Source: Solirubrobacterales bacterium
Lineage (GTDB): Bacteria; Actinomycetota; Thermoleophilia; Solirubrobacterales; 70-9
Assembly: GCA_021323175.1 (NCBI GenBank)
Contig: JAJTCK010000006.1
Coordinates: 1-43,310 of the forward strand
Length of the DNA stretch: 43,310 bases
Direction: 5' to 3'
In this document: piece after piece, positions 22,538 through 42,163 of the stretch
How positions within the stretch are numbered: position 1 is the stretch's first letter
Layout: every line of letters begins with the position of its first letter
Translations under genes and position numbers: made by a program
Notes under the pieces: generated by a model
What the model was told of the DNA's origin: nothing
The model's database searches: none
Seen by the model: the letters and a program-made list of their open reading frames with translations, nothing else

Positions 22538-23518
22538 CTACGCGCAGGACCAGGCTCCCGGGCCGTCGTTCTCCCAGATCAGGCGGGCGATACGGTCCTG
22601 CTCGGCCCTGGAAGCCTGGTGGGCATAGCCCTGGCCGCCGTAGGCACGCCAGGTCGAGGGGATGATTTGGTAGGCGCCGCCGGCGCCGCTCGAGGAGTTG
22701 TAGGCCCGGTAGTTGCCGCCTGACTCGCACATCACGATGTAGGTGGGGATCGCGTAGGGACCCCCCAGGTAGGCGCTGTCCGCGAGCTGCTCGGCTGCGG
22801 CCTTGCGGACCTCGAGCTCCCAGCCCGAGATCCGCTCTTGAAGCTCGGCGAGCGCGGCGCGCTCCGATTCTCGCGCCTGCGCGATCTCGGCGGCGCGGCG
22901 CTGGGCCTCCGCCCTGCCCGCCCCGATCTCCACCCGCGCGGACTCGAGGCGACGAGTCTCCGCGTCGATTTCGGCCTTCAGGGCCGCGATCTCCTCGTAT
23001 GCGGCCGCCACCTCGTCGCGCAGCTCCGAGACCCGGCCGGCGATGCGCTCGTCGGCATCGGTCAGAGCCTCCAGGTACTCGGCGCGCGCCTCCACCTCCT
23101 CGAAGCCCTCGGACTCGAGGACGACCGAGAGCAGATCGGGCTCCGAGCCCTTGTAGATCTCCACCAGACGCTTCGAGAGGACCCCGAGGGCCCGCTTGTA
23201 GCGAGCCCTGACCGCTTCCAGCTCCTTCTCGGTCGCCAGCAGCTCGTCGTTGAGCGCACCGGAACGGGCGGTGCTCTCGCGCAGCTGGGCCATCAGCTCC
23301 TGCTCGCGCGCCGCTGCCTGGTCGGCCTGCCGCTCCAACTCGGCGAGCTCGGCGGACCGGGAGTTGATGCGCTGGGTGATCAGGGTGGCCTCGTCCCGCG
23401 CGGACTCGAGCTTCTGCCCGGTGTCCGTGGGCTCGGCGATCGCGATCGCGCCGAAGCCCGCGACTGCGGCGGCGGCGGCGCCGCACGCGGCAATTCCGAT
23501 CTTGAGTTGCTTCGACAC
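22538..23518 (-). CDS. Secreted peptidoglycan hydrolase: coiled coil plus Rpf-like transglycosylase domain
   Basis: 326 residues from GTG 23518, chosen because GGAAGGA lies 9 bases upstream; ATG 23527 is the alternative but overlaps that site. A signal or anchor segment (IGIAACGAAAAAVAGFGAIAIA) leads to a long coiled coil (about 35-245, many ELExQ heptads), as in PcsB/RipA-type hydrolases, whose coiled coil holds the enzyme in check. The last 75 residues form an Rpf-like transglycosylase domain: IPTYIVMCESGGNYRAYN with the catalytic Glu, GAYQIIPSTWRAYGG, and the end GPGAWSCA, whose Cys can pair with the MCES Cys. Controlled by the cyclic-di-AMP riboswitch immediately upstream. Confidence 0.9.
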   Translation of the reverse strand: MSKQLKIGIAACGAAAAAVAGFGAIAIAEPTDTGQKLESARDEATLITQRINSRSAELAELERQADQAAAREQELMAQLRESTARSGALNDELLATEKELEAVRARYKRALGVLSKRLVEIYKGSEPDLLSVVLESEGFEEVEARAEYLEALTDADERIAGRVSELRDEVAAAYEEIAALKAEIDAETRRLESARVEIGAGRAEAQRRAAEIAQARESERAALAELQERISGWELEVRKAAAEQLADSAYLGGPYAIPTYIVMCESGGNYRAYNSSSGAGGAYQIIPSTWRAYGGQGYAHQASRAEQDRIARLIWENDGPGAWSCA

Positions 23519-23534
23519 GCTGCCCATTCCTTCC

Positions 23535-23702
23535 GGCGCCTGCGGGGTTAGCTGTCGGGCTCGCGCCGAAGGAGTGGCGCTACGCGTCTGGCCTGGTGGA
23601 CCTGCGATTCGCCCCGAGGCGCTGTGCGCCCCCTGGGTCCCCCGCTCCGCCACGATGACCGGGGCGGATTCGGCTCGCTATCGAGCCGCAAGTTAGCGGA
23701 CG
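23535..23702 (-). ncRNA. Cyclic-di-AMP riboswitch (ydaO/yuaA), in the leader of the Rpf-like gene
   Basis: Read on the minus strand, conserved aptamer blocks occur in the expected order: CCGAATCCG (23665-23673), GGGGGACCCAGGGGG (23629-23643), GGGGCGAATCGC (23604-23615), GCGTAGCGCCACTC, then GAGCCCGACAGCTAAC (23547-23562) and CCGCAGGCG. These are the hallmarks of the ydaO/yuaA class, which binds cyclic-di-AMP and is usually an off switch. In Actinobacteria it is known in front of Rpf and other wall hydrolase genes. The 3' edge touches the GGAAGGA ribosome site, so translation control by hiding it is likely. Boundaries are approximate. Confidence 0.88.
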
Positions 23703-40798: not shown

Positions 40799-40902
40799 GG
40801 CCCGTGATGCTAGTCAGCGGGCAGCCCGCGCCCGCATAGGGGCTCGGAACGCATCCGCGCGCAACTTCGCTCTCAACTGTTAGTTTCTCTTCACGGATGA
40901 CC

Positions 40903-41035
40903 TTGCTTAACCGATGCTCCTCCCTGGAGGGACATCGGCCGGGGGACCCAGTCCCGGGGCGAATCGCGGCGAAGCTGCCACGTAACGCGACTCTCTTTCG
41001 CGTGAGCCCGACAGCTAACTCCGGAAGCGCGAACG
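40903..41035 (+). ncRNA. Cyclic-di-AMP riboswitch (ydaO/yuaA), in the leader of the M23 peptidase gene
   Basis: The same ordered blocks as the 23535-23702 element, on the plus strand: GCTTAACCGATG at the 5' side, GGGGGACCCAGTCCC (40941-40955), GGGGCGAATCGC (40956-40967), CACGTAACGCGACTC (40979-40993), GAGCCCGACAGCTAAC (41004-41019). The match in the last block is 16 of 16 with the other copy. The 3' end is about 94 bases before the start codon, so its expression platform differs from the other one. Ligand assignment follows from the motif class; binding is untested. Confidence 0.88.
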
Positions 41036-41077
41036 AGAGAGAGAAGGTCGGTTGCGAAGTCGAAGCGTCGCCCGAAG

Positions 41078-41099
41078 CGGCCGGGGACGATCCCGGCCG
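41078..41099 (+). promoter_or_regulatory. Hairpin between riboswitch and M23 start, possible expression platform
   Basis: CGGCCGGG-gacgat-CCCGGCCG is a perfect 8-bp inverted repeat with a 6-base loop. It ends 30 bases before the GTG start and lacks a T tract, so it is more likely an anti-sequestering or Rho-related element than an intrinsic terminator. Confidence 0.45.
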
Positions 41100-41128
41100 G
41101 CACCCCGCGTGAGGGCCGCGGTCGCTCC

Positions 41129-42163
41129 GTGACGCTCCGCGGAGGAGCAGTTGCGACCCTGGTCGCCGTCGCGGCGCTGCTCGTCCTCGCGGCCTCGGCC
41201 CCCGCCGCCCAGTTCGGATCGCGGCCGCTGAAGATGGGATCGAAGGGCAAGGACGTCCGCGTCCTGCAGCGCAGCCTGACGCGCCTCGGGCAGTCCACGC
41301 CCGTCACGGGCTACTTCTGGAAGCTCACCAAGCGGAGCACCAAAGGGCTCGAGCGCGCGCAGCAGTGGCGGGTGGACGGCAAGGTCTCGCGCAAGGATGC
41401 CGCCCGGATCGCCGGACTGGCCGCCCAGGCGCCCAAGGCGCCCACAGCCACGACCGGGACCGTCTACTTCGTACGCGGGCTTCTGAAGCCGGAGATCGCC
41501 CTCACGGCGCAGTCCCCCGGAAGCGCGGCAGTGGACGTGGTGGACGTGGCCTCCGGCGCCGCCGTCGCCCGCCTCACCGTCAGCTTCGAGTCGGCCGGCA
41601 CGGCCGACTCGCGCTGGAACGGCCTGACGGCGTCGGGCGGTATCGCGCCCGACGGCAGCTACCGCTTCGATCTCGCCGAGCCCGGCGACGCCCGGGCTGC
41701 GATCACCGGCGGCCAGACGGACGAGTTCCGCCTTCGCCGCCACACCTTCCCGGTACCCGGGCAGCACGACTACGGAGGAGCCGGGTCAAGGTTCGGGGCG
41801 CCGCGCTCCGGCCATACCCACCAAGGCCAGGACATGGCCGCCGCCTGCGGTGAGCCGCTGCTCGCCACCGAGACCGGCACGGTCGCCGCCAAGGCCTACC
41901 AGGCCGGCGGCGCGGGCCACTACCTCGTGATCCAAGGGGCGGTCACGGGCACCGCCCACGTCTACATGCACATGGTCAAGGCATCCTGGGCCGACAAGGG
42001 AGAGGTGCTCTTCGCCGGGCAGCAACTCGGCAAGGTGGGCACGACCGGCTCCTCGACCGGGTGCCACCTTCACTTCGAGCGCTGGACCGCTCCCGGTTGG
42101 TACGTCGGCGGGAAGCCGTATGACCCGCTGAAGGAGCTGCGCTACTGGGACTCGTACTCGTAG
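41129..42163 (+). CDS. Secreted M23-family peptidase with peptidoglycan-binding domain
   Basis: 344 residues from GTG 41129. A signal peptide (hydrophobic core 7-22, APAAQ cut region) is followed by a PG_binding_1-like domain (about 35-98, LKMGSKGKDVRVLQRSLTRLG), a strand-rich FlgD/Ig-like middle (about 110-205, with ADSRWNGLTASGGIAPDGSYRF), and an M23 peptidase domain. Its zinc ligands are H231 and D235 (HQGQD) and H315; H281 (YMHM) and H313 (GCHLHFE) are the catalytic histidines. M23 enzymes cut peptide cross-links in peptidoglycan. Controlled by a cyclic-di-AMP riboswitch. The stop codon is inside an 18-bp tandem repeat. Confidence 0.92.
   Translation: MTLRGGAVATLVAVAALLVLAASAPAAQFGSRPLKMGSKGKDVRVLQRSLTRLGQSTPVTGYFWKLTKRSTKGLERAQQWRVDGKVSRKDAARIAGLAAQAPKAPTATTGTVYFVRGLLKPEIALTAQSPGSAAVDVVDVASGAAVARLTVSFESAGTADSRWNGLTASGGIAPDGSYRFDLAEPGDARAAITGGQTDEFRLRRHTFPVPGQHDYGGAGSRFGAPRSGHTHQGQDMAAACGEPLLATETGTVAAKAYQAGGAGHYLVIQGAVTGTAHVYMHMVKASWADKGEVLFAGQQLGKVGTTGSSTGCHLHFERWTAPGWYVGGKPYDPLKELRYWDSYS

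Follow-up and report, generated by a model that had tools for sequence, protein, structure and literature searches.

The locus considered here raises the question of how a c-di-AMP riboswitch, a class usually described as transcription terminators, would act where the 3′ side of its aptamer ends at the ribosome-binding site of the following gene. The locus lies in a window of 43,310 nucleotides (the whole stretch of DNA that was analyzed) from a Solirubrobacterales bacterium, in which a first-pass annotation, made from the letters alone, had placed a c-di-AMP aptamer at 23535-23702, next to the ribosome site of an Rpf-like wall hydrolase gene, and had suggested that it hides this site directly rather than terminating transcription.

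The class assignment was borne out by a covariance-model search (cmscan), the check that the annotation itself had named, which returned a significant minus-strand match to RF00379 (ydaO/yuaA, c-di-AMP) at 23685-23525, scoring 57.2 bits compared with a gathering score of 38 bits (E 8.4e-11). The match covers the full model (positions 1-134) and comprises the aptamer together with its 3′ tail; the span originally annotated overlaps this match, with a displacement of 10-17 nt in the 5′ direction. All core blocks are present on the minus strand in the order that had been described: the conserved blocks GCCGAATCC (23674-23666), GGGGGACCCA (23643-23634) and GGGGCGAATC (23615-23606), the aptamer hairpin region with the stem GCGCC ... 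GGCGC (23583-23560), the conserved block CAGCTAACCCCGC (23554-23542), and the P1 3′ strand GGC (23540-23538). The element is confirmed by these sequence features as a c-di-AMP (ydaO/yuaA) riboswitch aptamer, which would bind the ligand of its class.

The gene downstream (22538-23518, minus strand) encodes a predicted secreted protein of 326 aa, with a start that resembles a signal peptide by eye, a coiled coil that weakly matches the PcsB coiled-coil, and a C-terminal Rpf-like transglycosylase domain, which matches PF06737 (Transglycosylas) at residues 264-328 with 58.9 bits against a cut-off of 27. Target genes of the riboswitch class function in wall or ion homeostasis, and the transglycosylase-like domain places this gene among them, in agreement with its annotation as an Rpf-like hydrolase gene. 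A GTG at 23516-23518 (minus strand), positioned 9 nt after the Shine-Dalgarno sequence, is supported as the start codon by one same-genus ortholog (L243), in which its position and frame are kept. An alternative ATG at 23527-23525 is less likely as the start because a one-base indel in this 72%-identical ortholog puts it out of frame but spares the frame of the GTG.

Only 4 nt (GCCG) separate P1 from the sequence GAAGGA (23528-23533, minus strand), which is the core of the Shine-Dalgarno sequence GGAAGGA (23534-23528); the 3′ side of the aptamer thus reaches the ribosome site, as first described. The loop of the aptamer hairpin, ACUCCUUC (23575-23568, minus strand), contains the sequence UCCUUC (23568-23573), which forms six perfect pairs with GAAGGA, and the duplex CUCCUUC/GAAGGAA has a calculated energy of -7.5 kcal/mol. 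A strand of the aptamer therefore pairs with the ribosome-binding site itself, a trait of the Corynebacterium glutamicum nlpC type of switch. The loop also has CUCCUU in common with the 3′-end of 16S rRNA, CACCUCCUUUCU, a sequence taken from three family members, as this end was not found in the organism's own genome assembly. The UCCUUC/GAAGGA helix most likely corresponds to the pseudoknot already known for this class, because the same relation links the loop CUCCUUCG and the tail CGAAGGAG of the crystallized 108-nt ydaO construct, the report of which mentions a pseudoknot (PMC5393176; the two are equated here from the construct sequence rather than from coordinates), and because ydaO is listed in a review among the switches whose expression platform docks on the aptamer (PMC10907184). 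According to the same review, the aptamer-only and full-length structures of ligand-bound c-di-AMP riboswitches superimpose. The loop-tail pseudoknot of the solved RF00379 members is accordingly present in the window, and it covaries in the relatives.

This covariation was measured by a swap test, in which every loop was given the tail of another locus and the complementarity of own and swapped partners was scored. Across 137 loci of the order, own partners scored 16.47 and swapped partners 14.53±0.17 (Z 11.4; 0 of 2000 permutations, which leave some relatedness among the loci in), and for the 47 order loci with non-consensus loops the values were 14.55 and 11.47±0.36 (Z 8.6). Control tails taken 20-80 nt further downstream gave Z values between -1.1 and 0.9, while an excess for own partners was also detected in 20 other loci of the phylum (Z 7.0) and in 117 loci from all phyla (Z 13.8). 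The signal is clear when the loop and the proximal tail alone are used and weak when a wide upstream stretch, with its chance stem-tail matches, is included. In a MAFFT alignment of 65 loci, which is enriched for variant loops and in which misregistered tails count against the structure, all 7 pairs show two-sided changes, 42 covarying cells were counted as compared with 21.9±3.4 after shuffling, and the true register outscores slides of 1 to 3 columns. The order loci contain 37 distinct perfect helices, such as CUCUUUC/GAAAGAG and CUCGUUC/GAACGAG, including helices that lack the purine-rich character of a Shine-Dalgarno sequence (UCACUCG/CGAGUGA and GCCCAU/AUGGGC). Five order loci (L008, L038, L099, L109, and L111) have aptamer matches without a convincing loop-tail pseudoknot in the parse; L008, from the organism's own genome, has an enlarged hairpin.

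The pseudoknot is located at the initiation site in nearly all sampled loci of the order. For 117 order loci that have a pseudoknot, a start was assigned on the basis of reading-frame length and third-position GC, a procedure that may err in individual cases; the median distance from the pseudoknot to this start is 7 nt. In 15% of these loci the start overlaps the pseudoknot or directly adjoins it, and in 79% it follows at a distance of up to 15 nt, so that it lies in or no more than 15 nt from the pseudoknot in about 94%. The tight coupling to which the first-pass annotation had drawn attention is therefore present, but it is not peculiar to this gene. No terminator-like site was identified in the window leader, and an intrinsic terminator between the aptamer and the start, as found in the Bacillus type, is missing from the window locus; within the stretch scanned, intrinsic terminators were detected in 0 of the 137 order loci and in 49 of the 116 loci of an all-phyla sample, a comparison affected by the rarity of U-runs in GC-rich DNA. 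These results bear on the view that the aptamer acts mainly on transcription, through premature or attenuated termination, and that its closeness to the Shine-Dalgarno sequence is incidental. Termination is the textbook mode of the class in Bacilli, is consistent with the terminators in the all-phyla sample, and has been reported for Streptomyces rpfA (PMC10117811), and the lack of an intrinsic terminator is compatible with Rho-dependent or other attenuation; nevertheless, the terminator-free leaders of the window and the order, the very short distance from P1 to the Shine-Dalgarno strand, and a transcript level that does not respond to c-di-AMP in C. glutamicum (PMC9960051) make this view unlikely.

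Comparison of orthologs of the hydrolase gene indicates what is conserved. The same-genus ortholog retains both CUCCUUC/GAAGGAG and the GTG, and the aptamer and its geometry are kept in same-genus and same-family orthologs. In L252, L256, and L258 (GAAGGAUG), the pseudoknot runs into the start codon, and in L251 and L254 the tail is no longer similar to a Shine-Dalgarno sequence, the loop GCCCAU instead matching AUGGGC, which contains the start codon itself. Because the loops of these orthologs pair with or run into the start codon, what selection appears to maintain is pairing at the site of initiation, and not resemblance to a Shine-Dalgarno sequence in itself. The riboswitch is absent from nine of the 17 ortholog loci with the best matches (no CAGCTAA-type riboswitch is present in the fetched loci L245-L250, L253, L255, and L257), and c-di-AMP control of the hydrolase gene would therefore be patchy within the family. 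This patchiness, along with a score lower than that of any other of the genome's ten copies, is what a decayed relic or a chance match without any regulatory role at the hydrolase gene might produce, although such an origin is highly improbable for an element with this E value, with all core blocks and the pseudoknot intact, and with its geometry retained in same-genus and same-family orthologs.

The identity of the pseudoknot strand with the Shine-Dalgarno sequence, the covariation, and the absence of a leader terminator are best explained by a translational OFF switch, in which the fold stabilized by c-di-AMP buries the ribosome site of the hydrolase gene; we assign this explanation, which agrees with the direct hiding proposed at the outset, a probability of about three in four. 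In this mechanism, c-di-AMP would fill the aptamer and P1 would close, after which the hairpin loop UCCUUC would pair with the tail GAAGGA just after P1 to form the class pseudoknot. As the tail strand is the Shine-Dalgarno sequence, the 30S subunit would be blocked and the wall hydrolase would not be made, whereas at low c-di-AMP the ribosome site would be free more often. Ligand binding, its coupling to the pseudoknot, and the OFF direction are inferred here by analogy with the class as a whole and with C. glutamicum nlpC.

The folding calculations introduce a caveat. The leader is 72% GC, and nested folding yields a ligand-free fold of -93.1 kcal/mol that breaks the aptamer and pairs UCCUU with AAGGA, whereas the forced aptamer core reaches -61.7 kcal/mol, to which the pseudoknot adds about -7.5 kcal/mol. 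The fold model takes no account of pseudoknots, ligand, or folding during transcription and may predict too much structure in GC-rich RNA. If the nested fold is real, the Shine-Dalgarno sequence could be hidden with or without ligand, or the ligand could even open the site. In the latter case, the loop-tail helix would be an alternative hairpin that breaks the aptamer and hides the Shine-Dalgarno sequence until ligand frees it (an ON switch), and nested folding does favor this hairpin, with a pair probability of 0.81 in the window; among 130 order loci, 32% show the same preference. The aptamer hairpin is, however, also kept (79% of cells paired, with rare two-sided changes), a pseudoknot is present in the crystallized construct, whose loop and tail match in the same way (PMC5393176), and both C. 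glutamicum nlpC (PMC9960051) and the Bacillus cases (PMC9960051, PMC6488665) are OFF switches; together with the limits of the fold model, these points render an ON switch improbable, somewhat more so than control of transcription.

The translational OFF switch would not be confined to one gene. The window contains a second c-di-AMP riboswitch (40894-41044, plus strand; RF00379, 65.6 bits), which precedes an M23 peptidase gene (41129-42163; PF01551 and PF01471). The only start listed for the M23 gene is a GTG at 41129, approximately 86 nt past the pseudoknot tail, whereas in the orthologs L336 and L337 an ATG is found near the tail. A TTG-initiated ORF of 26 codons (41052-41132, plus strand) occupies the expected place of the start, and its TGA overlaps the GTG at 41129 (GTGA); this ORF could be a coupled leader ORF or reflect a local sequence error. 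The organism's own genome (an assembly of 2.3 Mb in 169 contigs) contains ten RF00379 matches and one diadenylate cyclase (DAC) domain, the latter in keeping with the proposed mechanism, and RF00379 matches were found in all 121 of the same-order genomes sampled, with 1 to 12 in each. The other targets in the genome include four M23 peptidases (one being the second target in the window), two DPBB lytic-transglycosylase-like proteins, a protein with an NlpC/P60 match below the curated cut-off, and a protein that resembles an NlpC/P60-like protein by eye and has no Pfam match. At a further locus of this genome (L009, contig C60), the riboswitch is followed by an ORF of 41 residues, MTALIEQLASDKLDRGTIVLAYALGIVVGTLVVAFLLVAVS, which has the look of a small single-pass membrane protein and not of a hydrolase.

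Among the closest known systems is C. glutamicum nlpC, for which c-di-AMP lowered the level of reporter protein and not that of transcript, and a pseudoknot between the aptamer and the ribosome-binding site, with CTCC of the riboswitch pairing with GGAG, was proposed; the OFF switch was concluded to be translational (PMC9960051). The window locus shares with it the aptamer class, a wall-hydrolase target, and the lack of a terminator. The pairing in C. glutamicum was derived from one sequence, whereas the pairing described here is backed by covariation across 137 loci in an order of the same phylum and is retargeted to the start codon in some orthologs; the work on C. glutamicum was experimental, the present analysis computational. 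The ydaO/kimA and kdpFABC riboswitches of Bacillus have the same aptamer, and the loop-tail match also occurs in the Firmicutes-rich all-phyla sample, but they close with an intrinsic terminator that precedes the start, whereas the tail in the window is the Shine-Dalgarno sequence. The Streptomyces rpfA riboswitch is of the same class, has an Rpf-type hydrolase target, and lacks a canonical terminator, as in the window, but transcription termination has been reported for it (PMC10117811), whereas at the window locus the pseudoknot strand is the Shine-Dalgarno sequence. The preQ1-III and cobalamin docking riboswitches resemble the window element in that pairing of an aptamer loop with a 3′ element conceals the ribosome-binding site (PMC10907184), but their aptamers and ligands are different and they do not form one family with it.

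The first-pass annotation had regarded hiding of the ribosome site as not the textbook mode for this class; the arrangement is indeed terminator-less and best read as translational, but there is published precedent (C. glutamicum nlpC, PMC9960051; review, PMC10907184). Elsewhere the mode is documented or proposed (for C. glutamicum it was proposed in 2023), and the window provides a further example of a known switch type; earlier statements on translational control in actinobacteria may be found in the primary papers on the class. The comparison adds that such an arrangement prevails across the order and that the loop tracks the site of initiation, start codon included. A broader proposal, for which the odds are about even, is that the riboswitches of the order have no separate expression platform, that an anti-Shine-Dalgarno-like loop pairs and co-evolves with the initiation site and has been retargeted from the Shine-Dalgarno sequence to the start codon in some genes, and that several wall-lytic genes in each genome form one translational regulon. 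The comparative data make translational control by a pseudoknot on the Shine-Dalgarno sequence the mode to be expected for many wall hydrolases of actinobacteria, and the natural covariation, with its Shine-Dalgarno and start-codon versions, provides material that is directly testable by reporter experiments.
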